A DNA stretch of 64,000 nucleotides from Acorus gramineus (Eukaryota; Streptophyta; Magnoliopsida; Acorales; Acoraceae): positions 1,633,608 through 1,697,607 of the forward strand of contig JAUJYN010000031.1 in assembly GCA_030737835.1 (NCBI GenBank), in the 5' to 3' direction. Numbering within the stretch: position 1 is the first letter of the stretch; each line of letters begins with the position of its first letter. Below are positions 16,801-50,038 of the stretch, piece after piece. The notes below the pieces were generated by a model. That model saw only the letters and a program-made list of their open reading frames with translations. It was not told the DNA's origin and searched no databases. The translations under genes and the position numbers were made by a program.

Positions 16801-17399
16801 AAATAGGGCTTACCAAGGGAGGGAGCGAAGTCCGGTTGCTCTCCACGCGCCGAAACCCTTCTCAACGGCTCTCTTATGCCCCGATCTACCACGGCCCTTG
16901 AAATGGCCCGAATCAGAGGACAAAGAGAGGGGGACGGAGTGGCTAGAGTCGTCGGAATCGGGTTTTGAAGACACCGGAGTGTAGATCGGGACCCGATCTA
17001 CACTTCCCGTGCTTTAGGTTTCAAGCTTTGAGGGGTCTAAGGGCCTCTAATGGAAGAAAAAGAGAGAGGGGAGAGAGAGGGATTTGGTAGGGATGATGAA
17101 TAGTGCATGGGATATTTTCTCACCCATTATTTATACCAAGTCACTTAAAAACCCGGATACGCCCCGGAACTGCGAAATTTCGGGAACGTTACCGGAATTC
17201 GATGAAATTTTCGTGAGAGGCATAAAATGGCACCAGGACACCAAATATGCAGTTAGATTTTCAATCGGAGTCCTCTAGCTCAGACAATAGCTAACAGTCC
17301 AAAAATTAGCGGTTCCGATCGAAAAACCGGTAAAAATTTTAAAAACTGCCAGGACGCTCCAACGGTTACCAGTAGGCTAAAAGTGACACATATATAACA
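13875..17399 (-). mobile_element. TyB solo LTR, antisense in TyA gag (3,525 bp)
   Basis: Inverted relative to TyA: starts TGTCACGCCCC and ends ATATAACA, flanked by the perfect 5-bp duplication CCATG (13,870-13,874 and 17,400-17,404). A single LTR without internal domain means LTR-LTR recombination after insertion. Read on the minus strand: TATAAATA at 17,135-17,128, splice donor GTAAGC at 16,813, a GC-rich tract (about 16,700-15,640), acceptor CTTGCAG at 15,543, a two-unit G-rich tandem repeat (about 14,540-14,420), and the U5 end. The dense Arg/Ala/Pro-rich frames at 15,587-16,984 are compositional artefacts. Confidence 0.93.
15543..16813 (-). other. Candidate intron with GC-rich tract in TyB solo LTR
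   Basis: On the minus strand, donor CCCTTG|GTAAGC (exon ends at 16,814) and acceptor TATCTTGCAG|ATCTAGACG (exon resumes at 15,542), 1,271 bp. The intron-free solo LTR at 30,546-32,830 shows the junction expected if this segment is spliced out. Confidence 0.75.
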
Positions 17400-17404
17400 C
17401 CATG

Positions 17405-17871
17405 TCAGTCGCTGATTACTCTACACGATTCACGAGGCTTTCCCGGTTCGCCCCGCCTTGGTGATGGATGAGGAGACGCGATGCCGTCGTTTCGAGATGG
17501 GTCTCATTAGCACCATCAGGGTGCATGTCACCTCACAGGCGTTCATGAGGTACTCAGACTTGGTGTCTCGTGCGAGGACAGTTGAGCGAGACCTTGGGGT
17601 CCCTTTGGGGGTTCCAACCCCTCCTGCAGACCAGAGGCCCCCCAGGAGCCAGGACCAGGGACATCGCAAGGGCAAGCGGCCCCGCTTTGATCAGTCAGCG
17701 GCCGCCGCTACTCCAGTCGATGTGGTGCCAGTGCGAGGTCCAGCACCCATTGCTGCAGTACCAGTCCAGGCTAGGCGACCGGAGACGCGGCGCTGTTACC
17801 ATTGCCAGCGGATCGGGCATATTTTATATGATTGCCCTGATGCTGGCCGACCCCGTGTGCCTCGACAGTAG
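17405..17871 (+). pseudogene. TyA gag, 3' part with zinc knuckle
   Basis: Continues gag after the solo LTR: SVADYSTRFTRLSRFAP, then a one-base deletion near 17,456 shifts the frame to VMDEETRCRRFEMGL. A complete CX2CX4HX4C zinc knuckle (CYHCQRIGHILYDC) starts at 17,794 and would bind the genomic RNA. The frame ends at TAG 17,869-17,871, with a second TAG at 17,878-17,880, both inside a CAG-rich glutamine stretch, so they are probably CAG-to-TAG changes. Confidence 0.87.
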
Positions 17872-17880
17872 CAGCAGTAG

Positions 17881-18650
17881 CAGCCACAGCGTCAGCAGCA
17901 GCAGCCACAGGGTGGCCGAGTTGACCAGAGGAGGCAGCCAGTGCAGCCTGCGAGGCGTGCCCCTGCTCCTCAGCCGCAGCTTGTTCAGGGTCGTGTTGCA
18001 GCACTTACAGCCGAGGAGGCGCAGGCTTCGGGTAGCGTGGTCCGAGGTATTGTTTCGATCTCCCAGCTTCCTGCATATGTGCTATTTGATTCCGGAGCCA
18101 CGCACTCGTTCGTGTCTCCCGTTTTCGCGAGACGGATGGGCGTGGTGTCCGCCCCTCTTGATGTTATGCTGGAGATATCATTGCCCGTCGGAGACCGTAT
18201 TCTCCTCCGTTCTGTTTACCGGGGGTGTACCGTGGCGATTGCGGAGCATGAGTTTCCATTAGAGTTGGTAGAGCTCGCCATGACGGACTTCGATGCCATC
18301 CTGGGAATGGATTGGCTCTCAGCTAGTCACGCCAGTATCGACTGTTTTGCGAAGTCGGTGTCTTTCCACCTCCCTGGTCGGAGATCTTTCCAGTTCGTGG
18401 GCGATCGGGACATAGCCCCTTTGGGGTTCGTGTCATCCATCCAGGCGTGGAGACTCCTTCAGGGAGGATGTGAGGGTTTTCTGGCGTATATTGCTGAGGA
18501 GGATGCACCACTGCGGGCAGATATCAGTCAGACTCCGGTCGTGGTGGAATATCCAGAGGTTTTCCCCGATGATCTCCTGGGATTACCGCCGGATCGTGCG
18601 ATCGAGTTTGAGATTAATCTAATTCGGGGACCGAGCCGATTTCGAGAGCT
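17881..18650 (+). pseudogene. TyA aspartic protease region
   Basis: After the Gln-rich linker the frame reads through a retropepsin-type protease with the active-site motif LFDSGATHSF at about 18,082 and the later block DFDAILGMDWL. It releases Gag and Pol proteins in functional relatives. The frame is lost near 18,645-18,678, just before the RT, where an indel lies in the [10 protein letters not shown] segment. Confidence 0.85.
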
Positions 18651-19300
18651 CCGTACCGGATGGCCCCAGCAGAGCTGAAGGTGCTCAAGGAGCAGCTGGA
18701 GGAGTTGCTCGAGAAGGGCTTCGCACGTCCGAGTGTCTCTCCGTGGGGAGCCCCTGTTTATTCGTTCGGAAGAAGGACGGTTCGCTGCGTCTTTGTATTG
18801 ATTACAGGCAGCTGAACAAGCGGACCGTGAAGAACAAGTACCCCTTGCCACGGATTGACGATCTGTTTGACCAGCTCCAGGGAGCGCGTGTCTTTTCTAA
18901 GATCGATCTCCGTTCGGGCTACTATCAGCTGAAGATCCGGGAGTCGGATATTCCGAAGACGGCCTTTCGTACCCGTTATGGGCACTACGAGTTCCGAGTA
19001 CTGCCGTTTGGGTTGACGAATGCGCCGGCAGCTTTCATGGATCTGATGAACCGGGTGTTTCGGCCCTTCCTCGACTCCTTCGTAGTAGTCTTCATCGATG
19101 ATATTCTGGTGTACTCGAGGAGTCTTGAGGAGCACGCTGACCATCTCCGCACTGTCTTGGAGACTTTGGCCCGACATCAGTTGTTCGCCAAGTTCAGTAA
19201 GTGCGAGTTTTGGTTGGAGCGTATGGCCTTTCTAGGCCACGTGATTTCCGGCGAGGGTATATCTGTGGACCCGGACAAGACGCTCGCCGTGTCGATTTGC
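18651..19300 (+). pseudogene. TyA reverse transcriptase
   Basis: Contains the classic Ty3 RT blocks: [67 protein letters not shown], and the catalytic FIDDILVYS at about 19,091. A missing base near 18,760 (in the segment before FVRKKDG) and another near 19,290 (after VDPDK) break the frame. The catalytic aspartates are intact. Confidence 0.9.
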
Positions 19301-19860
19301 GACCGTCGAACCCCACCGAGATTCGGAGCTTCCTGGGTTTGGCGGGTTATTATCGGAGGTTTGTCGAGGGTTTCTCGAAGATAGCTGTTCCTCTGACCCG
19401 CCTCACTCGGAAGGATGTCCGGTTCGAGTGGTCCCCATCTTGCGAGGAGAGCTTCCTGGAGTTGAAGCGAAGACTCACCTCAGCGCCAGTTCTTACCATT
19501 CCGTCTGGGAGTGGTGGATTCGCAGTCTACTCCGATGCATCGCGGCTGGGTTTGGGTTGCGTCCTGATGCAGTACGGTAAGGTTGTGGCTTACGTCGCGT
19601 CAGTTGAAGCCCCATGAGCAGAATTACCCCACCCACGATTTGGAGTTAGCAGCGATCATCTTTGCGCTGAAGATGTGGAGGCACTACCTCTATGGCGAGG
19701 AGTTCGAGCTCTTCACCGATCACAAGAGCCTGACTTACTTGCAGTCCCAGCCGGAGCTCAACATGCGTCAGAGACGTTGGGTCGAGTTCCTGAAGGACTA
19801 TGACTGTGACATCGCTTACCATCCGGGTAAGGCGAATGTCGTGGCCGATGCTCTCAGCAG
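19300..19860 (+). pseudogene. TyA RNase H
   Basis: Starts with the RT-RH connection ([20 protein letters not shown]), then [16 protein letters not shown], a frameshift near 19,605, and [41 protein letters not shown]. The RNase H degrades RNA in the RNA-DNA hybrid. Confidence 0.87.
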
Positions 19861-21421
19861 GCAGCCCTTGGGCATGGCCGCCCACTTGGCTGTACGTCGT
19901 TGGAGGCTTCTGGAGGAGGCCGCTTGCTGGATCAGCGTTCGAGAGACACCTGCGGGTGGCTTTTTGGCCAGGCTAGTGGTGCAGCCCGTTCTTCTCGACG
20001 AGATCCGCACGGCTCAGGGGCAGGATCCTCACTTTCTAGTCCTCTCTGAAGGCGTCGCCCGGGGCGAGCGTCCGGACTACCAGATTCGCGAGGACGGAAT
20101 CCTGCGGTTCAGAGGTCGAGTATGCATTCCTGACGACGCAGAGTTGAAGCAGAAGATCTTGGACGAGGCCCATCGTTCGAGGTACACAGTGCATCCTGGT
20201 GGCACGAAGATGTACAGGGGCCTTCGTCGTGGCTACTGGTGGCACGGGATGAAGGCGGATATTGGCCGTTTCGTTGCCCGTTGCTTGGTATGCCAGCAGG
20301 TGAAGTCGGAACATCAGCGTCCTGCGGGGAAGCTGCAGTCCATTGAGATTCCTCAGTGGAAGTGGGAGCAGATCACCATGGACTTCGTTTCGGGTTTGCC
20401 GAGGTCACGTTCGGGTCGCGATGCCATCTGGGTAATCGTCGACCGACTGACTAAGTCCGCTCATTTCCTCCCCATTCGACTCACCGATTCTCTGGACACC
20501 CTGGCACAGTTGTTTGTCTCCGAGATTGTTCGTCTCCATGGCACTCCCGTCAGCATCATTTCTGATAGAGACGCGAGGTTTACTTCGAGGTTCTGGCGTA
20601 GCCTTCAGCACGCCCTTGGTACGAACCTCCACTTCAGTACAGCGTTTCATCCGCAGACGGACGGCCAGTCGGAGAGGACGATTCAGACCCTGGAGGACAT
20701 GCTGCGAGCTTGCGTTCTCGACTTTGGGGGCAGTTGGGAGAGGCATCTCCCGTTGGTGGAGTTCGCCTACAACAACAGCTACCACTCGAGTATTCGGATG
20801 GCACCATATGAAGCGCTCTATGGCCGCAGCTGCAGGTCCCCCTTGTGTTGGGACGAGGTCGGAGAGCGCCAGTTGGAGGGACCAGAGATCATCCACCAGA
20901 CCTCAGAGATTGTCAAGACGATTCGTGAGCGTATCCGAGTTGCTCAGAGCGGTCAGAAGAGCTACAGCGATGGTCGTCGCCGTGAGCTCGCCTTCGAGGT
21001 TGGTGACCATGTTTTCCTGAAGGTGTCCCCGACGAAGGGCATCTTCCGTTTCGGTGTGCGGGGCAAGCTGAGTCCGCGTTACATTGGGCCGTTTCTCATC
21101 CTCGAGCGGATTGGAGAGGTGGCCTATCGCATAGCCCTGCCCCCACAGTTGGCTCAAGCCCATGACGTCTTCCATGTCTCGCAGCTGAGGCGTTACGTCC
21201 ACGATCCTGCTCACGTTATTTCGTTCGAGCCGCTCGTCTTCGAGCCGGACTTGTCATTCGTGGAGCAGCCGATCGAGATCCTGGACCGACGCGAGAAGAG
21301 GCTCCGCACCAAGACCGTCCAGCTGGTTAAGGTGCGATGGCAGCACCGTTCTGGTGCCGAGGCCACTTGGGAGCGCGAGGACGCCATGCGTGGCGCATAT
21401 CCACATCTTTTCCCTTCCTAG
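19861..21421 (+). pseudogene. TyA integrase with chromodomain-like tail
   Basis: A long open frame, the best-preserved part of pol. It holds an HHCC zinc-binding domain ([20 protein letters not shown], then CLVCQQVK), a DDE catalytic core ([30 protein letters not shown]), the conserved YNNSYHSSI block, the [14 protein letters not shown] / [12 protein letters not shown]-terminal domain, [13 protein letters not shown], and a chromodomain-like tail ([27 protein letters not shown]) ending at TAG 21,419-21,421. Taken alone this part is uninterrupted, but upstream breaks prevent its synthesis as part of a polyprotein. Confidence 0.9.
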
Positions 21422-21456
21422 ATGTTTTTGTATTAATTTTGTGGACAAAATTTCCT

Positions 21457-21469
21457 AAGGGGGGAAGAA
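21457..21469 (+). promoter_or_regulatory. TyA polypurine tract
   Basis: AAGGGGGGAAGAA directly abuts the 3' LTR; it is the expected primer for plus-strand DNA synthesis. Confidence 0.9.
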
Positions 21470-24063
21470 TGTTATGCCTGTGTCATTTGGAGCGCTCTGA
21501 TTGAAAATTTGGCTACATAATTTTTCTCCTCGAAGTTATGTATTTCCAATTTGGTATTTGGATTTGATTTTGTTAAAATCCAAGATGAAGAGGTTTAAAT
21601 ATGAGTTTATTATGAGATGCTCAGTTTCGAGTTAGCTTTCATACAAAAGTGGAATTAGATCAACTGGATTCATGTAGTAAAAGTTATGGGTATTTTTCCA
21701 AGTATACCCCGGGGATGAAAAATTCTGGCAGCAGCCCTGTTCAATGTTTAGCTCTAATTTCGGAATAGCTAGAGGGATTATTTGATCTTGGCATAAACAT
21801 GAAAGTTGTAGATAATCTTCTTGGCTTTCCAACGGATTTTGAATTGTGCAATTCGGAGCTAAATTAAGGAAGTTCTGGCTGTTCTAGTGAAGCATGTGCA
21901 GAATTTCTAGTTAGGGATGAATTGGTCATTTCTATCCCTCCTTTAGATAGTTATTGCCCAAAATCTCTCTCTCTCTCTCTCCCACTCACACGTCTACTCT
22001 CTTGGGCCTCTCTTTCTCTCTTTCAAAGTCCCCTCCAAGTGTTTGTTTTATTTCCTCAAAGAGAAGGAGAAGGTGGAGGAGGAAGTGATGGTGAGAGTTA
22101 GTGTAAGTGTTGTTGTAGTTGTTGATCTCTCTTCTCTCAAGTTCCCTTTCATGAACTTTTCCTCCCTGATTTGCAGCCAATGGAGGGCTGAGGAGGGCTG
22201 AGGAGGTGGTGGTAGTGGTGGTGGTGGTTGAGGTGGTCGCGGGTGCGTCGAGGGCCCCCGAACCTCCCCCTTTCATTTCCCCTCCCAAGGTGAGCCTTTC
22301 CCCTTCTTTTCTTGGTTTTTATGGCTTAGGGATGGTTGGGGAGGTCATGCATGTTGGGTAGATGTGTTAGAATGTGTGTGAGGGGTTGGGGAGGGTTAAA
22401 AAGGGGTTAGGGAAGAGTGGGCGCGCGCTGGGGGCTGTCTGCGCGCGAGCACGCGCAGGCGCGCGCGCAGGAGGGCGCGCAGATGCGCGCGGGCGCGTGC
22501 GCGAGAGAGTGCGCGGAGTGGGCACGCGGGTGCGCGCGGGCGCGTACGAGGGTGCACTCGCGCGGGGTAGTGCGCCTAGGCATGTGCCTGGGCGCGCGGC
22601 TGGGCACAAGTGCGTGCGCGCACTTGCGTGCGCGTGCGAGGGGCCATGCGTGTGGCTGCCCGAGAGTTCGGGTAGGTGTCGGGGCACTCGGACTCGCGTG
22701 CGCACATGCGTACTCGCATGCATGCGAGTCCATATGCATGTTTGTCCGAGTATTTGGTATTTATATTAAATTTCATGTATGTTTGTGTAGTTTACTCACC
22801 ATATTGAATGCCCATGTCTTACAGATCTTGGCGAACGGTCACGCAACGACCCGGGTTGCGGTGAGTGGGTCAATCCAACCCAGTAGGGAGGCGTTCGATG
22901 CACGTAGGCGTGCATTGCCCTCCCCTGGGGCACCATAATTGCATATTAACTTGTGTCAATGAAAAACAATGTTAATACATGTTTTACTATGATGTAACCA
23001 TGCCATATTAGACATTGTATGCTAGGGATATACATCCATGTATCATGTATAGAGGCCCATACATGTCTAGAAGCCTTGATCTATGCATGTTTCCCATTTA
23101 GTTTAATTTAATTAAATAAATTGAGATTATGTTGGTATGAGCATGTCTTAGAAAATATTATAATATATGTTTCCCGCATCTCAGTTATGCGCCCTGGAGG
23201 AATTCTTGAGAATTCATGACATTAGTAGTGTTAGAAATCGTTGTCGACGGATCCAAGAGGATCGTATCCGTGTGAGTAGGCTGTTTTCTCCCCTTCGTTG
23301 GATCCGAGTAGGGACTCCCCAGCGTTGGGAAAGCTGTCCTGACAGAGGGCTCCCATCTGTAGGTACCACCGATGCGTTCGGAGGGTACTGATCGTGGGAG
23401 TATACCAGGTAGAGGCTACGTGAGGGAGAGGCTACTGGTGGACCAAGGGTGGAGAGCAGTCTAGTCTGTCCCAAAAGGCCCATGTCACCCCTAAAGGGTG
23501 AGGGTGAGGGTGGGGTGGGTCGGCGGTGTTACGACCCACTAGCTTGTACAGTTACTCCCGTTTAGGGACTTTAATTATTTTAAGGTTAATATGAGTTGTG
23601 TTGCATAGATTGTGCCATTCACTGAGCGTGTGGCTCACCCCTCGCATATTCTTTTCCTCCAGTTGTATCTGAGTCGGATCTGAAGGAGGAGCTCCCCGAG
23701 GCATCACATCAGTAGCGGAGCAGCGTTCACGTTTTGGGTTCTGCGAGTGAGAGGCCATCAGCATCCCCTTCTTTGCTTGTATGTATTGTTATCCGTGCTT
23801 GGGCACAATACTTGTATTGGGATGTCTTTGTTATATTGGCTCTCACAGGACAGTTGATTATGTATTCTGGTCTGTAATATGTCTTTAAATTACAGACTCA
23901 GTCGTTTAAGCTTCCGCTATATGTATATATATTATGTCAGCTACATTATTGATTGTGTTGTCATTTTCGATGTTGTTTAGAGTCTTTTATTAATCTCCTG
24001 TATGGACTGCTGATATTATATATATTTGCCACGTATCGAGGACGGCCGCCCTGGGGCGTGACA
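21470..24063 (+). repeat. TyA 3' LTR (2,594 bp)
   Basis: Same ends as the 5' LTR and very similar throughout. The main difference is the GC-rich tract, longer here. The candidate intron is 22,290-22,824 (donor CCCAAG|GTGAGC, acceptor TGTCTTACAG|ATCTTGGCG), 535 bp against 443 bp in the 5' LTR. Ends GGGGCGTGACA, followed by target duplication ATTAA. Confidence 0.92.
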
Positions 24064-24907
24064 ATTAATAATTAAAATTTTAAAATTTAAACAAATTTAT
24101 TACAATTAGTTATTAAACAATTGACTAAAGGATAAAAAGGGAAATAAAAATATTGGGTCACAAAATCTTTTTAATAAGTAAGTAATAGATAGATATATAG
24201 ATTTATAAAGTATATTATATTCATATTCATATGTACATCTTATATTATTATTTTAGTTCATGAGGGTTTTTCATTCTATTACAAAAAAACATATTCATAG
24301 AAATAAAATTTAATAGATATATATGGTGAATATATTTAATTTCAAAATTAAGAAATTAGAATATATAGATATGTTTTAAAATAAAAATATATTTATATGA
24401 TTTAATAAAATCTTATTTTCATATCTTAAAATTTTATGATTGATCAAAATCTTAAATCTGATAATAACATATTAATAATTATACAAATCATAATCTTATT
24501 AGATCATATCGTATCATTTAATGATTTTAAAATTTAAAAATTTAAATAAATCTATTATTATTAGTAATTAAACAATTAATTAAAGGATAAAAATAGAAAT
24601 GAAAATATTGGGTCACAGATTTCTTTTAATAAGTAAGTAATAGATATATTTATATGATTTAATAAAATCTGATTTTCATATCTTAAAATTTTATGATTTA
24701 TCAAAATCTTAAATATGATAATAACATATTAATAATTATACAAATCGTAATCTTATTAGATCTGATCGTATCATTTAATGATTTTAAAATTTGAAAATTT
24801 AAATAAATCTATTACTATCAATAATTAAATAATTAATTAAAGGATAAAAATGAAAATGAAAATATTGAGTCACATAATTCTTTTAATAAGTAAGTAATAG
24901 ATATGAT
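24064..24907 (+). repeat. AT-rich tandem repeat array, right of TyA
   Basis: Units containing TTAAAGGATAAAAA, AAAATATTGGGTCACA and TTTTAATAAGTAAGTAATAG begin near 24,070, 24,523 and 24,780. The last two are spaced 257 bp; the first is separated by extra AT-rich sequence. The sequence left of TyA (10,430-10,505) matches the start of a unit. Confidence 0.65.
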
Positions 24908-30540: not shown

Positions 30541-30545
30541 CCAAG

Positions 30546-32830
30546 TGTCACGCCCCAGGGCGGCCGTCCCCGGGACGCGGCAAGTGTATATAAAATATCA
30601 GAATCTACACAGGAGGTCAATAATATATCATACACAAACAACCAGAATGACACACAGACAACAAAGGAGCTGACATGATATATACACCAAATGCGGAAGC
30701 AAAAGACTGAATCTGTAAATAAACATACTACAGACTCGATACTCAATCATCTGTCCTGTGAGAGCCAATATACACAAATACAACTGAATATATACAAACG
30801 TGTGCCAAGCACGGAAATAAAATACATACAGTCAAGAAGGGATGCTGATAACCTCTGGTACTCGCGGAACGTGGCGCTGCTCCGCTACTGAAGGAATCCC
30901 TCGGAAAGCTCCAACTGCTGCTCCGGCTCCAGCTCAGGCTCAGTGGTAACTGGGGAAAAACATATGCGAGGGGTGAGCCACACGCTCAGTGAACGGCACA
31001 ACCCATGCATCACAGACAATATTGACCACAACATATTAATCCAGCAATTCATCCCGCCTCCAAAGGGCAGGAACAACATAATCAATAATCCATCTTAAAC
31101 CACTATTTCCATAACCCAGATCATACCCTCACCCTTACCCCTCAACAGGGGACTCAGGATATTGGGACTGACAATCATCCATAAACAAATCCAGCGGGTC
31201 GCTCATCGCCAACCCACTACACCCTCACCCTCACCTTTCCAAAGGTGACATAGGATTTTGGGACTGACTAGGCTGTTGGTCACCCTTGGTCCACCGGTAG
31301 TCTCTCCTCCACTCCGTAGGCCGCTTGGCTTTCACCCACAACTTCAGCACACTCCGAAACCAAATCAGGAGGCGCCTACTGATGGGAACCCTTGGAAGGG
31401 ACGACCTTTCTAACGCTGGGGCAGTCTCTATCGGATCCAACGAGGGGGACAGAACAGCCTATCCATACGCATATGATCCACTCGGATCCGCCGACAACAC
31501 ATCTCTACAACTCAAATGTCATGAACTCTTCAGAGTTCCTCCAGGGCGCATAACTACGATGCGGGGAAATAAGTATAATAAAAGCAAGGTTGTAATATCA
31601 TTGGGGGAAAGAACTCGGGAGGGCGGCGTGAGTTCCCGTTATAGGATACCCCGACAACCAAACAAGGAACACGGAGTACCCTAACCCGGGTCTCACCGCT
31701 GTCCTCGCAAGGCCCCTCCCCTATAATATTCACTAACATGCTAATAAACATACCAATCATACAACATTATTTATAATATTATTGGGACTAGAAACCTTGG
31801 GAGGGCAGCATGAGGTCCCGATACAGGACATCCCGACAACCAAACAAGGAACCCGGAGTACCCTAACACGGGTCTCAATGTTGACCTCGCAAGGCTCCTC
31901 CCTATAATATTATCTAAGGCATGCGATTTAACATACACTAGCATTTAATTTAATAAATAAACTAGTAGGACGCATGCATAGGCCAAGGCTTCCTAGCATG
32001 AAAACAGGGGGCGTGGTGCATGGCTCTTACACCTTTCCTATGGGCGTAAGTCCCTAACATAAAAGTCTAGGGTAGCATGCATTCTACATTTAAAATCATG
32101 CTCACATGTAATGCATATTACTACAGGTTAATATAATCCACGGTGCCCCAGGAGAGGTCGGTATACGCCCAAGTGCGTATAACACCTCTCTACTGGGTTG
32201 GATTGTCCCACTCACCAGAACTCGGGTCGACGCGCGACCGTCCGTCGAGATCAAGGAGAGGAAGCGAAGTCCGGTTGCTCTCCGCACGCCGAAACCTTTC
32301 TCACTACGCCCCGATCTATCACGGCCCTCAAAACGGCCCGAAACAGAGGAGAAGGAGGGGTGGTCGGGGAGGCTAGGATCGCCGAATCGGGATTTGAGGG
32401 CACCGGGGTGTAGATCGGGACCCGATCTACACTTCCTAGGTTTTGGGTTTTTGATTTTGAGGGGTCTAGCGGCCTCAAAAGTGAGAAAAATGGAGAAGAG
32501 GAGAGAGGGGAAGGGTTGGTAGGGATGATGAATAGTAACTCGAAAATTAGATCCCACTTATTTATAGTGTGCGACTTAAAAACCCAGATACGCCCCGGAA
32601 CTGCGAAATTTTGGGAACGTTATTGGAATTCGATGAAATTTTCGTGAGAGGCTTAAAATGGCACCAGGACACCAAATATGCAGTTAGATTTCCAATCGGA
32701 GTCCTCTAACTCAGGACGATAGCTAACAGTCCAAAAATTAGCGGTACCGATCGAAAACCGAAAAAAAAACGAAAAACTGCCAGAATGCTCCAACGGTTAC
32801 CAGCAGGTTAAAAGTGACACAAATATAACA
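30546..32830 (-). mobile_element. TyB solo LTR lacking the intron (2,285 bp)
   Basis: Begins TGTCACGCCCC and ends AAATATAACA on the plus strand, with perfect target duplication CCAAG (30,541-30,545 and 32,831-32,835). It aligns with the other TyB LTRs across both ends but lacks the GC-rich segment. At 32,251/32,252 the sense strand reads ...CTCTCCTTG|ATCTCGACGG, exactly the join of donor exon and acceptor exon of the intron-bearing copies. TATAAATA lies about 300 bp upstream of the junction (near 32,560, minus strand). A two-unit G-rich tandem repeat lies at 31,120-31,250. Confidence 0.93.
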
Positions 32831-33499
32831 CCAAGTACATGATACAATATTCATTTATGATATTTTTAGGGTTGACTGTGATATGTTTGTCATCAAATAC
32901 AGTAAGCACCAGATAAAAGGAACCAGCATGGAATTTGGGCAACATAACATAACATTTCAAAGTTCCGAGGGGAATATGTGGCCAAAATCATTTGAAACTC
33001 AAATAAATGAAATCCAGGAAGAGTGTGAAATGTATAAATAGCATATGTAAATATTACTTTGTAGTTATTTTGTAATTCAGTGGCGGTGATTTAAACAGCA
33101 GATGTGTACACTGTTATCGATTTAAATGTTTCATATATCAATTTTAAATGATGTTTGAAATGTTTGTTCGCGATTACAATTTAAAATAGTGTGTACACTG
33201 TTATACACACATATAAAAAGATGAAGTATACTGTTATAAAAAGAGAGTGCTGGGGTTAAAAAGGGAAATAAAAATGGTAGGGTTAATTGTAGATGGATGG
33301 AAGGACCTAAACACAATGGATGGAGGGATTTAAAGAAAAGTATAAAAAGTCAAGGGACCTATTGTTATTACAGTGGTATCCCCAAGGACCTCTAATTAAT
33401 TTCCCCATTTAAAAAAAATAAAAAAACACAATAAATATGGGGTTTTTTTTTTCTTGGAAAATTTAGAGGTCCTCCAAATAAGGGGGCCCGTAGACGATG
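32831..33499. other. AT-rich tract between two TyB solo LTRs
   Basis: Right continuation of the TACACTGTTAT region (motif at 33,107 and 33,190), then GGACCTAAACACAATGGATGG and GGACCTCTAATTAATTTCCCC, which look like a transposon end. No coding sequence was recognised. Confidence 0.4.
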
Positions 33500-36400
33500 T
33501 GTCACGCTCCAGGGCGGCCGTCCCCGGGACGCGGCAAGCGTATACATGATATCAGCAGTCAATACAGGAGATCAATAGTATACCATAAACAACAGCTAAA
33601 AAGATAACACAGACAACAAAGAGGCTGACATGATGTATACACAGAAAGCGGAAGCTAAAAAGACTGAATCTGTAAATCAACAACACTTTACAGACTCGAT
33701 ACATAATCATAAGTCCTGTGAGAGCCAATATATATATACACATACATCCATATAATCCAAACTGGGTGCCCAAGCACAGAAATATATACATACAATAAAA
33801 GAAGGATGCTTATTGCCTCAAAAACTCGAGGGACGTGGCGCTACTCCGCTACTGGTGCAGTCGCTCGGGAAGCTCCTCCTTCAACTCCGCCTCGGTAATC
33901 ACTGAAGAAAAAATATTATACGAGGGGTGAGCCACACGCTCAGTGAATAGCACAACCCATGCATCACAGTTCATATTAACCACAATTTATCAGCAAAAGC
34001 CTCAAAGTGGCATAAACAACACAAATCCGGGGGTTCGTTACATCGCCGAACCACCGTACCCTCACCCTCACCCCTCAATAGGTGACAAAGGATGTTGGGA
34101 CTTAGTAGGCTGATAATCATCCTTACACAAACCAGTGGGTCGCCACATCGCCGGCCCACCACACCCTCACCCTCACCCCTCAATAGGTGACATAGGCTAT
34201 TGGGACTGACTAGGCTGATGGTCGCCCTTGGTCCACAGATAGTCTCTCCCCACTCCGTAGGCCATTTGGCAACTCCCACATTCAGCACAGTCCATCTACC
34301 AAATCAGGAGGTGCCTACTGATGGGAGCCCCAGCACGGGATGACCTTTCTAACGCTGAGGTAGTCTCTACATGGATCCAACGAAGGGAACAGAACAGCCT
34401 ATCCATCGCATATGATCCACTCGGATCCGCTGACAACACATCTCTACAACTCTAATGTCTTGAATTCTTCAGAATTCCTCCAGCGCGCATAACCAAGATG
34501 CGGGGAATACATAAGATAATAATGAGGAAAAGAGACCTTGGGAGGGCAACCTGAGGTCCCGATATAGGACATCCCGCCCACCAAACAAGGAACACGGAGT
34601 ACCCTAGCCCGGGTCTCAATGTTGACCTCGCAAGGCCCCCTTAATATTCCCCAAAGCATGCTAAAAATATCTTAAGTTTGCATTTAATTTAATAAATCAA
34701 ACTAATGGGACGCATGCATAGGTCGAGGCTTTCCTAGCATGATAACAAGGTGACAGGATGCACGGCTCTTACACATATCCTAAGGGTGCAAGTCCCTAAC
34801 ATACAAAGTCTAGGGTGCCATGCATTCTACACACTAATCATGCTCGCACAGATTACATATAACAAGTTAATATTAACTACGTGCCCCAGGGGAGGACGGT
34901 ACATGCCCAAGTGCATGTAGCGCCTCCCAACTGGGTTGGGTTGTCCCACTCACCGGTAACCGGGTCGTCGCGCAACCGTCCGTCAAGATCTGCAAGACAG
35001 GGTAATCAACCCGGTGAGTAAAATACATAAATACCACAAAATACTCAAAAATACTCAATTAAATACCCAACACTCGGGCAAACGTACATACGGCCCGTAC
35101 GCACGCTAGCCCGAGCACCCCGACTCACTCCCGCACCCCCGGCAACCATCCGCACAGCCACCCGCCCCCAGATGCACCGCCGCGCCCCAGCCCGCGCACC
35201 CAGGTGCCCTGCTGAGCCCCTGCCCGCACGCCAGGACACACCGCCGAGCTCCCCGGGTGCACCGCGCGCTCACTGCGCCCCATCGCAGCAGCCCGCGCGC
35301 ACACCACACGCCCCGCGCCCAGCTCCTCGCCCCGCACGCACCACCGCTTGCCTAATCGCGCCCTCGCCTCGCTCCGCGCGCACCCCGCGCGCACCACCGG
35401 CTCACCCAGCGCTCCATCGACTCGCCGCGCGCGCACAGCGCGCCTGCGCCTCTACGCAGCGCTCCGCGCTCACGCCCCCGCACGGCGCCCTGCACGCAGC
35501 GCCCCATCGCCCACGACCAGCGCCCAGCACACCCACGCCCAGCGCCCAGCACACGCGCCCAGCACGCCCTCCAGCTCCACCCGAGCGCACGCCCGCGCGC
35601 ACGCGCGCGCGCGCCCAGCCTGCTGCGCTGCTTGCTGCCTGTGCTGCTGCCTGTGCTGCCAACCTGCCCGAGACAGCAACCCACCCTGTCCGAGCCACCC
35701 TACCTCCTCTATCCGGCCACCCATGGCCCCCAACAGCCACCCATCACCCCCCACAGCCACCAACACCCAAACCCACCCTCCTAACAAGCATCTAAACATG
35801 GAAAAGAAGGAAAGAGAGCTTACCCAAAGGAAGGAGAGGAAAGGAAGGGAACCGAAAGCTCTTCTTGCACCGAAATGCCTCCCCAAAGCCCTACACCACC
35901 AAGGACTCTTCCCACCCTCAAAGGGGCCAAAAACTGAGGAGAAAAGAGGGGCTAAGAGGGGGCTAAACACCTCGGAATTCGAATCCGAAACTACCGGTAG
36001 ATAGATCGGGACCGGATCTAACCTTTCTATGCTTTGAGTTTTAAGGTTCAAGCACTCTAGGTGGCTCAAATCCAAGAAAAAGAGAGAGGGGGAGAGAGAA
36101 AATCTATTTGAGAAGATGATGAATAGTGGAGGGCAACCTTTTTAGATTCACTTAAATAAGTCAACACACTTAAGTTAGTGTTAACCTAGGTTTAATTAGG
36201 GCTAAGAGAGGGTTAGGGTGATTTAAGTGAGCTTTGACTTGGGTCAACCCAACCACACAAAAAAACAAAAAGGGTTGACCAAGTCATGGGCCCACTTTGA
36301 CCGAGTCAACTCTCCCAATGACTTCTCGCTCGGTCAAAACCCGGATACGCCCTGGAACTGTGAAATTCTGAAACATACCAGAATTCGATGAAATTTTTGT

Positions 36401-36585
36401 GAGTGGCTTAGAATGGCACCAGGACACATAATATGCAGTTAGATTTTCAATCGGAGTCCTCAAACACAGGACGATAGCTAACAGTCCAAAATTTTGCGGT
36501 TCCGATCGAAAAACGAAAAAAACTTAAAAACTGCCAAAATGCTCCAATGGTTACTAGCAGGCCAAAAAGTGACACATATATAACA
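33500..36585 (-). mobile_element. TyB solo LTR with intron (3,086 bp)
   Basis: Starts TGTCACGCTCC and ends ATATATAACA, flanked by CGATG (33,495-33,499) and CGACG (36,586-36,590), a 5-bp duplication with one mismatch. Read on the minus strand it has a donor (GTAAGC) at 35,823, the GC-rich tract (about 35,660-35,060), the acceptor CTTGCAG ending at 34,990, and a two-unit G-rich repeat (34,200-34,030). There is no internal domain. It is more diverged in the promoter part than other copies (extra segment at about 36,130-36,330), so it may be an older subtype. Confidence 0.9.
34990..35823 (-). other. Candidate LTR intron in the TyB solo LTR at 33.5 kb
   Basis: 834 bp between GTAAGC (donor, minus strand, from 35,823) and CTTGCAG (acceptor, ending at 34,990). 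It has the same position in the LTR and the same type of GC-rich interior as in the other copies, but a different length. Confidence 0.65.
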
Positions 36586-39858: not shown

Positions 39859-40450
39859 TGTTATATATGTGTCACTTTTTAGCCTGCTGGTAACCATTGG
39901 AGCATTTCTGGCAGTTTTAAAATTTTTTAGGGTTTTTCGATCGGAACCGCATAATTTCAGACTGTTAGCTATCGTCTGAGCTAGAGGACTCCGATTGAAG
40001 ATCTAACTGCATATTTGGTGTCCTGGTGCCATTTTAAGCCACTCATGAAAATTTCATCGAATTCTGGCATCGTTTGCAAAAATTTCGCAGTTCCGGGGCG
40101 TATCCGGGTTTTTAAGTCGCGCTCTACTTAAAAGGAATCAAAAATATCTCGGCACTATTCATCATCTTCCCGACCTGCTCTCTCTCTCTCCTCTCCTCCG
40201 ATTTTCTTCCGTTCGAGCCCCTTACACCCCTCAAAACCAAAAACCTAAAGCACGGGAAGTGTAGATCGGGTCCCGATCTACGCTCCGGTGTCTTCAAATC
40301 CAAATTCCGACGATCCTAGCCTCCCCGACCTCCCCTCTCTCTCCTCTGTTTCGAGCCAAATCGAGGGCCATGATAGATCGGGGCGTGAGAAGGCTTGTGG
40401 GAAAGGTTTCGGCGCGTGGAGATCCACCGGACGCCCCTTCCTCCCCCTCG

Positions 40451-41477
40451 GTAAGCTTCTTTCCCTCTCTTTTCTTGTCTAGATGATTGCTAGGGAGGGG
40501 TTTTGTGTGTGGGGGATGGTCGGTGGCAGTGGGGGTCCTCGGAGGGTGGTCGGGGGTGGTTGGAAGTGGTCGGGGCAGTGGGAGGGGTGGTTGGAGGTGC
40601 TCGGCAGGCGGGAGATGTCCTCGGGCGCAGGCAGCAGCAGCAGCGGCTCAGGCAGCGCGCAGGCCGGGCGCGCGCGGGCATGCGCGCGTGCGTGCGCGGG
40701 TGTGCGTGCGCGCGGCGTGTGCGTGGGTGTGCGCGGGCCTAGTGCGTGGGGCTGGTCGTGCTGGGCTCGCTGGATGGGCTGGGGGCCTCAGGCAGCACAG
40801 GCAACGAGCAGGAGCCGGCTGGGCGTGCGCGCGTGCGTACGCGCGAGCGTGCGCGCGGGCGTGCGCTCGGGGGAGCTGGTCACGGCGGTGCGAGGCGTGC
40901 GAGCTGCTCGGGTGGTGCTGTGCGCGAAGGGCTGATGGCGAGCTGGTCTGGGCGCGCGCGGAGGTGCTGGCCGAGGTGCTGGACGCGCGAGGTGCGCGCG
41001 GAGGTGCTGGCGGAGGTGCTGGACGCGCGAGGTGCGCGCGGAGGTGCTGGCGGAGGTGCTGAGCGGAGCGCTCGGGTGCTGGGGCGCGCGCGGAGGAGGC
41101 GCGGGGCGAGGAGCTGTGCGCGAGGCGTGCGCGGGGCGCGGCGGAGCGGCGGAGCTGTGCGCGGGGCGTGCGCGGGGCGCGGCGGAGCGGCGGAGGTGCG
41201 CGCGGGGTGCGCGCGGGGCGCGCGTGGGGCGAGGAGCGTGCGCACGGCGTGCGGGGCGCGTGCGGGCTGCCGCGGCTGGGCTCGGTGGACGCGCGGGGCC
41301 CCGGGCGGTGCGCGGGCTGAGGCGCGGCGGCGCGTCCGGGCGGTCGGGTGGCCGTGCGGGTGGTGGCCGGCCGTGCGGTGGTTGCCGGGGGGGGGTGTTG
41401 GATGTTTGTTTGTGTGTGTTATGTATTTTTGGGATAACTGTGGATTTATTCTAACCAGTTAATACACTGTCTTGCAG
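40451..41477 (+). other. Candidate intron in TyB 5' LTR
   Basis: CCCCCTCG|GTAAGCTTC donor and ACTGTCTTGCAG|ATCTCGACGG acceptor, 1,027 bp, with a pyrimidine-rich region near the donor and a T-rich stretch (GTATTTTTGGGATAACTG...TTTATTCTAACC) before the acceptor; TTCTAACC is a plausible branch site. The solo LTR at 30.5 kb has the spliced junction. Confidence 0.78.
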
Positions 41478-42289
41478 ATCTCGACGGACGGTCGCGCGTC
41501 GACCCGATTCCCGGTGAGTGGGACAATCCAACCCAGTAGAGAGGGGTCATACGCATTTGGGCGTATACCGACCTCTCCTGGGGCGTCATGGATAAATATT
41601 AACCTGCAATGATATGTATATCATGCGAGCATGATTAAACTGTAGAATGCATGTTACCCTAGACTTTGCATGTTAGGGACTTGCACCCTTAGGATGTGTA
41701 TGAGCCATGCAGCATGTCCCCTGGTTCCATGTTAGGAAGCCCGGCCGATGCATGTGCCCTACTAGTTTATTTATTTGATTAAATGCTAGTATTTGTTTAC
41801 AATGCATGTTATAGTGAATATTATAGGGGAGGGGCCTTGCGAGGACAGCGGTGAGACCCGGGTTAGGGTACACCGTGTTCCTTGTTTGGTTGTCGGGGTG
41901 TCCTATAACGGGAACTCACGCTGCCCTCCCGAGTTTCTTTCCCCAACGATATTCCACCTTGTTATAACCTTATGCATGTTCCCCGCATCGTAGTTATGCG
42001 CCCTGGTGGGTTCTGAGGAATTCAGAACATTAGTGTTGTTATAATGTGCCGTCTGCGGATCCAAGTGGATCATATGCGATGGTTAGGCTGTTCTGTTCCC
42101 TTCGTTGGATCCGGTAGAGACTACCCCAGCGTTAGACAGGGCCTTCCTGACAGAGGGCTCCCATTAGTAGGCACCTCCTGATTTTGGACGGACTGTGCTG
42201 AATGTGGGAGTAGACCAGGCGGCCTACGGAGTGGAGGAGAGCCTATCGGTGGACCAAGGGTGACCAACAGCCTAGTCAGTCCCAAAATC

Positions 42290-42610
42290 TTGTGTCACCC
42301 ATTGAAGGGTGAGGGTGAGGGTGTAGTGGGTTGGCGATGAACGGCCCACTGGAGTTGTGATTGGATGCTTATCAGTCCCAATATCCTATGTCACCCATTG
42401 AAGGGTGAGGGTGAGGGTATGGTGGGCCGGCGATGTGGCGACCCACTGGATTGTAAGTCCCAAAATCCTATGTCACCCCTTGAGGGGTGAGGGTGAGGGT
42501 GTAGCGGGTTGGCGGAAGCGACCCGCTGGTTTTGTGTTGATTAGTCCCAATATCCTTGGTCACCCATTGAGGGTGAGGGTGAGGGTGTAGTGGGTGGGCG
42601 GTAGCGACCC
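42290..42610 (+). repeat. G-rich tandem repeat array in TyB 5' LTR (4 units)
   Basis: Units start near 42,294, 42,389, 42,472 and 42,560, about 83-95 bp each, with core GTCACCCATTGAAGGGTGAG followed by GGTGAGGGT and a GTGGGTTGGCG...CGACCCACTGG inverted motif. Each unit contains four GGG runs close together, a G-quadruplex-type motif. The same array has four units in the 3' LTR (from 49,181) and one to three in the other copies. Confidence 0.85.
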
Positions 42611-43156
42611 ACTAGTTTGAGGAATTGTTGTTGTTGTGGCTTTGGTAATGATATTGTGAATGATGAGGATATCTGGTTGTGGTCAATTTGTCTGTGATGC
42701 ATGGGTTGTGCCGTTCACTGAGCGTGTGGCTCACCCCTCGCACAATATATTTTCTTCAGTGTCATCTGAGTCGGATCTGGAGGAGGAGCTCCCCGAGGGA
42801 CTTCATCAGTAGCGGAGTAGCGCCACGTCCCGCGAGTTGCAGAGACTATCAGCATCCCTTGTACCAGTATGTATTATTTTCCGTGCTTGGGCACGCGTTT
42901 GTGTTGTATTTGGACGTCTTTGTATGTATATTGGCTCTCACAGGACATGTGATTATGTATGGAATCTGTAGTGTGTTTTGATTACAGATTCAGTCTTAGT
43001 TATTCGCATTTGGTGTATATATCATGTCAGCCCTGCTTTTGTTGTCTGTGTGTCATTCTGGCTGCTTGTGTATGATATTATTGACCTCCTGTGTAGATTC
43101 TGATATTATATATACACTTGCCGCGTCCCGGGGACGCCTGGGGCGTGACAAAAAGG

Positions 43157-43168
43157 TGGTATCAGAGC
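43157..43168 (+). promoter_or_regulatory. TyB primer binding site (initiator Met-tRNA)
   Basis: TGGTATCAGAGC six bases after the 5' LTR. Confidence 0.92.
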
Positions 43169-43270
43169 CTGGTCCTGTCAGAGCCAATGGTCTTCTTTCG
43201 TAGAGATGAGTCCTAGGATTTTGATATGTCTATTATGATCCTAGAGTCTGGTTTTCTTAGGATTGCTGAT

Positions 43271-43660
43271 ATGTCTCCTCGTGGAGGACGGCGCGGACAT
43301 GGTCCCTCTCGACCTTTGGAGGTTTTCGGACCTGCTAGAGGCGAGGATGCTACTGGAGAGTCCACGGCTGTGAGGCCAGGATCGGCGCAGGAGCCTCCCG
43401 CACGGGAACGTGCGTTCGCTCGGATAGCGGATTCGGTGGAGACTCGGATCAAGGCACTGGAGGCGCAGACCAGAGCGTTGGTAGAGCAAGCGCGGGAGAT
43501 CCGGGAGCTGAGGGCGGCCCGTGATGCAGTTCCACAGGTCCCCTTGGTAGCAGATCCGTCTGTGGTACCCGAAGTACCCCCAGTCCCCGTGGTGATTCCA
43601 GCGGCGAGAGTTCAGGATCCCCTAGTGAGGGAGGTGGAGCTAGAGGCTGCAGCGCGAGTA
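43271..43660 (+). pseudogene. TyB gag N-terminal fragment
   Basis: MSPRGGRRGHGPSRPLEVF through the coiled-coil-like TRIKALEAQTRALVEQAREI block and the Pro/Val-rich linker, colinear with TyA gag to EVELEAAA. Similarity to TyA stops at about 43,660; the gag core domain is missing here and the frame ends at 43,699. Confidence 0.85.
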
Positions 43661-43689
43661 TTGAGTGTGGTTGTTCGAATTGAAGAGGC

Positions 43690-44335
43690 TGGGTTGTAGC
43701 CGTCCTGGCAGGAGGCTCTCATCCGTAGGTACCGCCGATGCAGTCGGAGGGGTACTGATCGTGGGAGTGTGTCAGGTAGGGGCTAATCCGGAAATGGATT
43801 AATGGATGGTGTCGCGAGCGTGGAATCGCTCTCCCCTTCGTTGGATCCGCGTAGTACAGCCCCAGCGTTAGACAAGCTCCCGATCAGAGGACCAGGCGAG
43901 CTACGGAGCGGGGAGAGGCTACCGGTGGACCAGGGGTGAAGAGCAGTCTAAGTCTCTCCCAAAGTCCCAATATGTCTCCTGATGGGAGTGAGGGTGTGGA
44001 TGAGACAATGACGCGTCAACTCGTGACCCAAATTGCTGTTCGACCATTCCCACGGAGGTTGGGTCCGGTCTTGAGAAGGATGTTGAATGACATCGTTGGG
44101 TGATCATCTAGAGGTAGATGATCCGGAGGGGTTAGTGGTGTTCTTTTAAATGATGTCTTCTTCCAGTGTTCCTTTCTGGATTAAGGGGCCTTGTGAGGTC
44201 GGCGTTGGAACCCGGGCTAGGGTACTTCGTGTTCCTTGTTTGGTTGTCGGGGTATCATATATCGGGATTTCATGGTGCCCTCCCGAGGTTTCTTTTTCCC
44301 AGGTAAGGGATGCCATGGAAGCATCAGAAAGATGA
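43690..44335 (+). other. LTR-derived segment inside the TyB interior
   Basis: Phrases normally found in the LTRs occur between gag and pol: GGCTCTCATCCGTAGGTACC, TACTGATCGTGGGAGT, CCCCTTCGTTGGATCCG, and GGGCCTTGTGAGG...GTTCCTTGTTTGGTTGTCGG (44,185-44,265). They diverge clearly from this element's own LTRs, so they come from another LTR subtype. Their order also differs from the LTR (the GTTCCTTGTTTGG block comes last here, first in the LTR). Confidence 0.7.
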
Positions 44336-44339
44336 GAGA

Positions 44340-44780
44340 TCAAGTGCGAGTTTGGTTAGAGGTTAAGGCCTTTTGGGCTGAGTGATTTCTGGTGAAGGCA
44401 TATCTGTGGACCCGGGTAAGACGCTTGCTATGTCGAATTGGCGTAGGCCGTCGAACCCCGCAAGGATTCGGAGCTTCCCGAGTTGGAGGGTTATTGTAGG
44501 AAGCTTGACGAGGGACTCTCGAAGATAGCTGTTCCTCTTAACCGCCTTACTTGGAAGATGTCCGGTTCGAGTGGTCCCCTTCTTGCGAGGAGAGCTTCTG
44601 GAGTTTTATCGGAGGCTCACCTCAGCGCCAGTTCTTACCTTCCGTCTGGGAGGGGTGGGTTCGCAGTTTGCTCTGACGCATCGCGATTGGGTGTGGTGAT
44701 GCGTTCGATCGGAACCAGGTGCGTCCTATTGCAGCTCAGTGGGCGATCGCTAGTGGACAGGGTTCCATAGTGGCATCTGG
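44340..44780 (+). pseudogene. TyB RT-end / RNase H-start fragment, misplaced
   Basis: Matches TyA 19,195-19,600: AAGTGCGAGTTTGGTTAGAG, GATTTCTGGTGAAGGCATAT, GTAGGCCGTCGAACCCC, and RH start GGTTCGCAGTTTGCTCTGACGC. Full of indels and stops. It lies upstream of the RT N-terminal and gag C-terminal fragments, the reverse of the canonical order. Confidence 0.75.
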
Positions 44781-45052
44781 AGTCGCTTCGATAAATCATT
44801 ATGTGTTGTAGCTGCCCGGTTGAGGCCAGAGCCCTATGAGGTGCTCCCAGATGCTATGCTTGTTGGTGCGCCCATATGGCAGAGATAGCGGGCTTGGGAG
44901 GCTACCAGGTAGAGGCCACACCGGGAGAGTGCTGCTAAATGATGACGAAAGCATGGACTCCCCGTGATGAATCTGCCCATAGAGTGCAGGATGCCGGAGT
45001 TCCAATGGTTGTGATGAGCGGCCTATCTCTGGCGGCATGTAAGCACAGATGT
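44781..45052 (+). other. Unassigned segment in the TyB interior
   Basis: Contains GGCTACCAGGTAGAGGCCAC, similar to an LTR phrase, and otherwise no recognisable pol sequence. Confidence 0.35.
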
Positions 45053-45300
45053 AGATACTGTCGCGTTTTGCCCCACATTGGTCGCAAATAAGGAGACGCG
45101 ATGCTAGCGTTCGTGATGGGACTTGACCGCCATATCAGATAGATGACGTTGCATAGGCATTGTCGAGGTCCGACGACCCCTTATTGCATGTCTCGTGGAT
45201 TAAGTGCGGTTAAGCGGCTTACCGAGCGTGTAAGTGTTATCATGAGCGCCAGCCATGCTCGAAGAGCAGAATCCGAACTTGATTGTTCATGGTGTTGTTT
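45053..45300 (+). pseudogene. TyB gag C-terminal fragment, misplaced
   Basis: GGAGACGCGATGCTAGCGTT and flanking sequence correspond to TyA gag at 17,445-17,570 (the MDEETRCRRFEMGL block). No zinc knuckle is recognisable. Confidence 0.55.
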
Positions 45301-45319
45301 TGATCTCCCCGTGGAGGTA

Positions 45320-45565
45320 GAAGATCAATTACCTTTGTCGCGAATGGATGATCTATTTGACCAGCTCTGAGAGCGAGTGCCTGCTGTTAGATCGATCTTC
45401 GCACAAGGGTACCACAAGCTGGAGATCCGAGAGTTGGACATCCCGTAGATGGCCTTTCGTGACCGTTCAGGCACTACGAGTTTTAAGTACTGCCGTCGGG
45501 GTGGACGAATGCGCCGGATGCCTTCGTGGATCTCGAAAGTTTTATTGGGTTTTCGAGGACTACTT
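45320..45565 (+). pseudogene. TyB reverse transcriptase N-terminal fragment
   Basis: LPLSRMDDLFDQL at about 45,331 and the following GATCGATCTTCGCACAAGGG / GAATGCGCCGGATGCCTTCG blocks match TyA 18,843-19,040. The catalytic FIDD motif is not preserved; the corresponding segment reads through stops. Confidence 0.75.
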
Positions 45566-45639
45566 TGGGGTAGTCTTTGTTGAGTTGCTGTGGTGTGATG
45601 ATAAGATGATGTGGGTGACCTTGTTTCCCCAGGTTGGCA

Positions 45640-46740
45640 TGCCCTCAGGCAAAGTTCGAGATTCAACATCGCGTGGGAAGCGTCAGTCCATCAAGATTCC
45701 TCAGTGGACGTGAGAATGGGTTGTCAGGGATTGTTGCAGACTCGTTAATGTCACGTTCGGGTCACGACGCCGTCTGGGTGATCATTGACCGACTGACTAA
45801 GTCCGCGACTCCCTCCCTATCAGACTGATTGAGTCTCTGGACGTCTTGACGTGGGTTTCCACCTTCGCGATTGTTCGTCTTCATGGCACTCCAGTCGGCG
45901 CTATTTTCGGTTGAGACGCGAGGGTTACTTTGAGGTTGTGGCGCAGCCTTTGGCGCGAGCCTCCATTTAAGTATAGCGTTTCATCGCCGATGGACAGCCA
46001 GTCAATGAGGGCGATTCGAACCTTGGAGGACATGCTATGTGCCTGCGTGCTCGATGTTGAGGGCAGTTGGGTGAGGCACCACCAATTGTTGGGGTATGCC
46101 TGTAAGCGACTGCCATTCGAGCACCCGGATGGATCGGTGATGGGCACTCTACAGGCGCAGTTCCATACCTCCCTTGTGTTGGGACGGTAGTGGAGCGCCA
46201 GTTGGAGGGGCCATAAGTTAGTTGTTTGACCTCGCGGTGGCCGGGTTGGTTAGGGTGTACATCTGCACCTCCCAGAACCGACAGAAGGGCTACCCGGGTC
46301 ATCGTCGCCAGAAGCTTACCTTCGGGTTTGGCGACCATAATTGCAAGGAAGTGTCCTGGTTTAAGGGCATCCTCTGTTTCGACGTTCGGGGCAAGCCGAG
46401 TTGCTCTTTAATGGGACCTTGTTCTCGTCATTGAGTGGATTGGGGAGGTGGCTTATCATGTAGCCTTTCCCCCGCAGCTGGTTCATGCCCACGACGTCGT
46501 CCTTGTCCCATGGCCAAGGCGTTATGTCCACGATCCTGCTCACGTCATCCCGTTCGAGCCGCTTGTCTCTGAGCCGGACAGTCATTCGTGGAGCAGTCGA
46601 TTGAGATCATGGACCGCCGCGTGAGGAGGCTCTGCACCAAGACCGTCCAGCTGGTCGAGGTGCGATGGCAGCACCGTCCGGTGTTAAGGACACTTGAGAA
46701 GCTCATGGATGCCAGGTGTGACGCATCTTTTCCCCTCCTA
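45640..46740 (+). pseudogene. TyB integrase and chromodomain-like tail, decayed
   Basis: Colinear with TyA 20,310-21,421: WVIIDRLTKSA (about 45,775), the RTLEDMLCACVLD segment (about 46,018), GGGCAAGCCGAGTTGCTC, and the tail IEIMDRRVRRLCTKTVQLVEVRWQ (46,600-46,675). Multiple frameshifts and stops; the first DDE Asp region is altered. Confidence 0.82.
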
Positions 46741-46775
46741 GATGTTTTTGCATATTTTGAGGACAAAATTTTCTA

Positions 46776-46787
46776 AGGGGGGAAGAA
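46776..46787 (+). promoter_or_regulatory. TyB polypurine tract
   Basis: AGGGGGGAAGAA directly before the 3' LTR. Confidence 0.88.
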
Positions 46788-49700: not shown

Positions 49701-50038
49701 TAGCGGAGTAGCGCCACGTCCCGCGAGTTGCAGAGACTATCAGCATCCCTTGTACCAGTATGTATTTTCCGTGCTTGGGCACGCGTTTGTGTTGTATTTG
49801 GACGTCTTTGTATGTATATTGGCTCTCACAGGACATGTGATTATGTATGGAATCTGTAGTGTGTTTTGATTACAGATTCAGTCTTAGTTATCCGCATTTG
49901 GTGTATATATCATGTCAGCCCTGCTTTTGTTGTCTGTGTGCCATTCTGGCTGCTTGTGTATGATATTATTGACCTCCTGTGTAGATTCTGATATTATATA
50001 TACACTTGCCGCGTCCCGGGGACGCCTGGGGCGTGACA
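46788..50038 (+). repeat. TyB 3' LTR (3,251 bp)
   Basis: Nearly identical to the 5' LTR. The intron candidate is 47,374-48,364 (991 bp, 36 bp shorter because of a contraction in the GC-rich tract near 48,080-48,120). Four G-rich tandem repeat units from about 49,181 to 49,505. Ends GGGGCGTGACA followed by AGTAC. Confidence 0.92.

Follow-up and report, generated by a model that had tools for sequence, protein, structure and literature searches.

A solo long terminal repeat (LTR) at positions 30546–32830 of the window, i.e. the whole 64,000-nucleotide stretch of Acorus gramineus DNA analysed here, was found to lack exactly one segment with the ends of a spliceosomal intron (intron 1), which the four other full LTRs of the same retrotransposon family, TyB, retain. 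The exact loss was identified in many copies of two families, TyB and TyA, together with conserved splice signals; it is derived in the solo LTR, and one element was without the intron in both of its LTRs. That the intron exists and is removed through RNA is very likely, and we consider it highly probable that intron 1 lies in the transcribed leader of the LTR, is usually retained in the genomic RNA, and is occasionally spliced out before reverse transcription.

The solo LTR and its missing segment

The LTR (B2, 2285 bp) lies on the minus strand and was delimited by its LTR ends and by alignment to the four other TyB LTRs. Both ends are intact, and the flanking target-site duplication CCAAG is perfect (30541–30545 on the left, 32831–32835 on the right). 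In comparison with the four other full TyB LTRs a single segment is absent, leaving the join ...CTCTCCTTG|ATCTCGACGG at 32252|32251 of the minus strand, followed by exon 2 (32216–32251), which was 36 nt long in all seven window LTRs compared. As G is the last base of exon 1 as well as of the intron, the join (32251–32252) can be placed at either of two positions one base apart. In the other copies the segment reads GTAAGC...CTTGCAG and covers 1271 bp in B1 (LTR 13875–17399, intron 15543–16813, minus strand), 834 bp in B3 (33500–36585, intron 34990–35823, minus strand), 1027 bp in the 5′ LTR B4 (39859–43150, intron 40451–41477, plus strand), and 991 bp in the 3′ LTR B5 (46788–50038, intron 47374–48364, plus strand).

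Of the ~5.5 million deletions of 200 bp or more that such an LTR could undergo, 2 would give the end pair seen in B2 (p ~4e-7 for one copy), and ends bounded by GT..AG are expected in 0.8–0.9% of random deletions within it. The observation of an earlier note on this DNA, namely an insertion at these coordinates with intact ends and a CCAAG duplication that lacks exactly the GTAAGC...CTTGCAG segment of 834–1,271 bp, was thus confirmed, as was its argument that a random deletion would rarely hit both splice sites.

The ends of intron 1 were conserved in the genome at large. The donor, located by alignment and not by its letters, was GTAAG in all 33 distinct genomic TyB LTRs that have a donor in the retrieved stretch (35 examined), as well as in the four window copies, and the acceptor was TCTTGCAG|ATC in 24 of 24 TyB LTRs, the CAG having been demanded by the search pattern itself. 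These GT...AG ends, with extended donor and acceptor, are as in a putative intron of the spliceosomal U2 type. In many copies CTCAC, CTAAC or CTTAC, a possible branch-point site, was seen by eye 20–35 nt 5′ of the acceptor, a count with a loose pattern being uninformative. The intron ranged from 554 to 1417 in length in the genomic TyB LTRs, with common length changes inside and the ends kept; these LTRs were chosen by a probe match up to the acceptor and include pairs from one element, a sample which cannot measure the rate of end loss. T content was 0.40 at both ends of the intron and 0.14 in the middle. The middle part (e.g. 40501–41357) is G-rich (47–54%), CpG-retaining, and of variable length.

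Both LTRs of the TyA element in the window have a diverged intron in the corresponding position, CCCAAG|GTGAGC ... TCTT(G/A)CAG|ATCTTGG, which is 443 bp long in the 5′ LTR (11333–11775, plus strand, GTGAGC...TTGCAG) and 535 bp in the 3′ LTR (22290–22824, plus strand, GTGAGC...TTACAG). Between the families, intron identity was 0.70 in the first and 0.92 in the last 25-column window with a largely unalignable middle, and U3 plus exon 1 reached 42–45% identity in aligned columns. A gap survey of six LTR pairs was not used, as the aligner put the B2 intron gap one base off, and none of its gaps scored as GT-AG.

Exact joins elsewhere in the genome

The 399 Mb assembly containing the window was searched with probes spanning exon joins, each search giving 40 scored matches out of 1,120–3,736 candidates. 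With a 200-base probe over the B2 join, nine of the 40 matches crossed it, B2 included, and 31 started at the acceptor boundary (3,736 candidates). A 100-base probe gave ten crossing matches, namely B2, one at each of the eight loci found before and an additional LTR at one of these, and 30 starting exactly at the boundary (2,439 candidates). When the probe was taken from the B4-like copy L031, 4 of 40 crossed, one at a new locus (3,407 candidates). For TyA the join was a prediction, as no window copy displays the intronless state and both window LTRs keep the intron, though 12 of 40 matches to the exon 1–exon 2 probe crossed it (2,390 candidates). A decoy join with ends 150 bases outside the B4 splice sites was crossed by none of 40 matches (1,918 candidates), eight of which ran 3 bases past it.

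In total, at least 23 distinct join-crossing LTRs were obtained at 22 loci, 11 of TyB type (B2 included) and 12 of TyA type. The 11 TyB LTRs, at 10 loci, share one identical join, and all 12 retrieved TyA-type copies join at the acceptor base, 11 of them gap-free at the donor end too; the acceptor is hence exact in 23 of 23 and the donor also in 22. Of the eight TyB loci first retrieved, five have perfect 5-base duplications around the intronless LTR and one has a duplication matching at 4/5 positions; a further locus has direct repeats of 7 bases, and the last is an element's 3′ LTR. The genome-wide comparison of deletion endpoints that the earlier note had called for, here run in part, therefore favoured splicing (acceptor base exact in 11 of 11 TyB and 12 of 12 TyA-type copies, donor exact in 22 of the 23).

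The element at C65:1989769–1999436 fits the structure of an LTR retrotransposon insertion, with two LTRs, AGATT flanks on both sides, a degraded primer site, and a purine tract before the 3′ LTR. Its LTRs are 95% identical, the 5′ one being interrupted by ~2.5 kb of other DNA, and both share the intronless join. Absence of the intron from both LTRs is the outcome predicted by reverse transcription of a spliced 5′ leader, and the element matches what had been proposed on this point beforehand.

On the basis of trees, B2 is the sister of the intron-bearing copy L011 (97.8% identity over 320 and 96.6% over 998 columns; support 100 upstream, 81 downstream and 100 combined), and among the seven window LTRs it groups with B1; its loss is therefore derived. 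Likewise, L031 was closest to intron-bearing L023 (96.4% and 98.7%; support 96 downstream, 81 combined), and the downstream tree placed the intronless copies L033 with B4/B5 (support 100) and L038 with B3 (99). Fitch parsimony required six changes on each of three trees, whereas irreversible loss required 7, 8 and 9 losses, the last with an arbitrary root. Several independent losses are claimed here and no exact number, because of the uncertainty of the deep nodes and because recombination can produce the appearance of recurrence. The trees omit L010 (no donor in the stretch), L050–L069, L082 and the 12 TyA-type copies, and the upstream tree also A1 and A2; no donor was found in L066, and 6 of the 20 loci of a later retrieval round repeat earlier ones. 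The intronless copies found were mostly single and mutually diverged, which hints that they seldom amplify, although searches scoring 40 matches each are too narrow to show this.

Leader, proposed mechanism and alternatives

On the minus strand, TATAAATA (32559–32566) lies ~315 nt before the B2 join and is followed by a conserved start-like motif. In 33 of 34 TyB copies this motif, ACT(A/G)TTCAT(C/T)(A/G)T, precedes the donor or join by 285–304 nt, the remaining copy being cut short; L020 has 84 upstream bases only. TATAAAT occurred in two of the five window TyB LTRs and in 8 of 34 TyB copies, and a loose TATA-like pattern, picked after the rows had been seen, was upstream of the motif in 31 of 34. 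Of the conserved element that the earlier note placed about 300 bp upstream, the strict TATAAAT was thus not conserved as such, but the start-like motif and, in most copies, the looser TATA-like pattern were present. From their positions we infer that intron 1 is inside the transcribed leader.

In the mechanism proposed, TyA and TyB are two related Ty3/gypsy families whose LTRs would carry a spliceosomal intron of ~0.4–1.4 kb; in TyB this intron would begin ~295 nt after the start-like motif and ~315–330 nt after the TATA-like box, and so in the transcribed part of the LTR. Unspliced RNA would be the usual template of reverse transcription, whereby most copies would retain the intron, and intron-1-spliced RNA would be packaged and copied now and then. 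Since the minus-strand strong-stop DNA is made on the spliced 5′ end, the intron would be missing from both LTRs of the resulting insertion, and recombination between these LTRs would then yield an intronless solo LTR such as 30546–32830. Transcription, splicing and packaging of spliced RNA are steps that we infer, as is the predominance of intron-bearing copies, which refers to samples only. The suggestion of the earlier note that the LTR segment is spliced gained support from the exact recurrent joins in two families and several lineages, and from the C65 element.

Several observations weigh against this reading of the genomic sequence. The middle of intron 1 is 68–79% GC in six window introns, which is atypical for a plant intron, and TyA and B3 show weak identity in the donor window, with 848 of ~20,000 random windows equally good. 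Depletion of upstream ATG codons in the predicted spliced leader reached significance in none of the seven window LTRs, the test leaving out exon 1 of B2 with its differing start motif. Among the TyA-type copies, L072 falls 5 nt short on the donor side, and in L079 the final G of the exon is replaced by A. Probes with an exact join favour exact joins, and 40 matches were scored of 2,390–3,736 candidates per search, which makes the absence of sloppy deletions weaker evidence than the presence of exact joins. The upstream tree puts L033 and L038 elsewhere, with weak support (52 and 65), and many intronless copies sit on deep TyB branches, a pattern that could also result from a reversed history or from recombination.

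The recurrence may accordingly not be independent, if one or a few ancient splicing-derived losses were spread by recombination of co-packaged RNAs or by LTR gene conversion. Spread of this kind would suit the partly deep position of the intronless copies, their occurrence as pairs (L034/L035, L032/L037), and the conflicting placement of L033 and L038, where upstream support is weak. It is nevertheless unlikely, as L031 retains the CTCG exon end of intron-bearing L023, B2 retains the CTTG of L011, and the intronless TyA-type copies have two different kinds of exon 2; moreover, the first loss would still require splicing. Far less probable is an ancestral intronless LTR, into which some lineages acquired the 0.4–1.4 kb segment by insertion of an introner-like or other mobile element. 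Although some deep TyB branches are intronless, TyA and TyB share similar intron ends, B2 is nested beside a sister copy that has the intron, the presence of both states in each family would call for many exact gains, and the flanking duplicated exon sequence is no longer than a single shared G. Chance genomic deletion, for which a single event with one shared base at the join would need no special mechanism, can practically be dismissed in view of the probability of ~4e-7 for one copy, the same ends in 22 of 23 LTRs at 22 loci, and the decoy join crossed by 0 of 40.

Downstream of exon 2, a candidate intron 2 (GTGAGTGGG ... TTTTTCCCCAG; 30950–32215, minus strand) is kept in B2. Its donor-like GGTGAGTGG stands just after exon 2 in all seven window LTRs compared, with a conserved TCACCCC...CAG|T 0.8–1.3 kb further. 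The corresponding TyB join was crossed by none of 40 scored matches (1,120 candidates; two ran 3 bases past), and the TyA one by none of 40 (1,238 candidates; one ran 4 bases past), a weak negative because the probes were short and copies of ~85% identity could be outranked. The candidate may thus be no intron at all; alternatively, RNA spliced there is not copied, or diverged copies escaped the short probes. Just after candidate donor 2, a conserved hairpin (32147–32197, minus strand, with counterparts in the other window LTRs compared) has 96.7% of cells paired and three pairs changed on both sides, with a covariation score reached by 8 of 500 shuffles and with only five distinct sequences. 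The hairpin is possibly a packaging or dimerisation signal.

A role for the splicing can be sketched tentatively, though we find it doubtful as a whole: splicing would make a short-leader mRNA for protein and the intron-retaining RNA would serve as genome, with intron-1-spliced RNA leaking into packaging and intron-2-spliced RNA not, possibly since the hairpin after donor 2 is the packaging or dimerisation signal, i.e. a retrovirus-like order of donor and then packaging signal in a plant LTR. Spliced RNA is expected to be excluded from reverse transcription in retroelements. In TyA and TyB, leakage of spliced RNA into replication would be measurable from genome sequence alone, via natural, countable copies. 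Promoters followed by strong splice donors would also be scattered through the plant genome, where they could splice into neighbouring genes.

Surrounding elements and known systems

The window contains five TyB LTRs, a sixth cut by the window end, and one TyA element. The latter (10506–24063, plus strand, target-site duplication ATTAA, with the TyB solo LTR 13875–17399 nested inside) is a Ty3/gypsy LTR retrotransposon by its order of protease, reverse transcriptase, RNase H and integrase; the Pfam matches in order were RVP_2, RVT_1, RT_RNaseH and Integrase_H2C2, with rve below its cut-off, in addition to a gag match. A chromodomain (PF00385) scored 19.8 bits (E 0.00073), under the cut-off of 25.1, and membership of the Tekay/Del clade is our suspicion solely from the long LTRs.

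The TyB element (39859–50038, plus strand) has two intron-bearing LTRs, the target-site duplication AGTAC, a purine tract and the primer site TGGTATCAGAGCC, which we take to be of the initiator-Met tRNA type. Its internal region (43151–46787) is only 3.6 kb with sense-strand open frames of at most 160 amino acids, and the element is probably non-autonomous. The leader between the primer site and the gag start is conserved (13039–13152 and 43151–43271) with short upstream ATGs, and acceptor-like TTTCTTAG lies just 5′ of the gag ATG in both the TyA and TyB leaders. The target duplication of B3 matches in 4/5 positions only (CGATG/CGACG). In the partial TyB-like LTR at 63173–64000, the acceptor of candidate intron 2 is retained (last intron base 63564). 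A 261-bp unit occurs twice head-to-tail, with 94% identity, immediately following the TyA element at 24387–24904, and a minus-strand open frame at 55101–55946 matches Pfam Pkinase and is probably a host gene.

An intron naturally inside the LTR of plant elements, with its spliced RNA apparently copied back into the genome, is unusual. A review describes plant LTR retrotransposons as generally intron-free, the exceptions being Ogre and EVADE (PMC12786077). For plants, the open-licence literature yielded no account of an LTR that contains a whole intron, as judged mostly by titles and the beginnings of abstracts; two of the papers deal with an intron in a vector leader (PMC5542766) and with human transcripts that have a splice site supplied by an LTR (PMC6771403). 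The text of a paper on plant centromeric retrotransposons was without the terms 'splic' and 'intron' (PMC3059260, term search), and IMG/VR scans for related plant elements confirmed none.

Ogre (Ty3/gypsy, Tat lineage) resembles TyA and TyB in having a plant Ty3/gypsy intron spliced from a subset of transcripts, but its intron is in the internal region, as the earlier note had stated, whereas that of TyA and TyB is wholly within the LTR (PMC6317226). The Ty1/copia elements EVADE and BARE1 likewise produce RNAs whose roles differ between the spliced and unspliced forms (PMC12786077, PMC3735527, PMC8892269), with the difference that their introns are in the coding region. According to the BARE study, spliced RNA must be kept from replication, and its DNA copies were not amplifiable from barley (PMC3735527); in sunflower elements, splicing was seen in nanopore RNA reads (PMC7730604). 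In foamy viruses the LTR contains the major splice donor, which precedes the polyadenylation signal in a region with RNA structure, though in these animal viruses the LTR holds the donor only and not a whole intron (PMC3694450). Finally, as in the intron-marked Ty assay of yeast, where intron loss through RNA reveals the RNA intermediate (PMC12786077), the loss in TyA and TyB would point to passage through RNA; the yeast marker is artificial, whereas the TyA/TyB intron is natural, lies in the LTR, and has its loss recorded in the genome.
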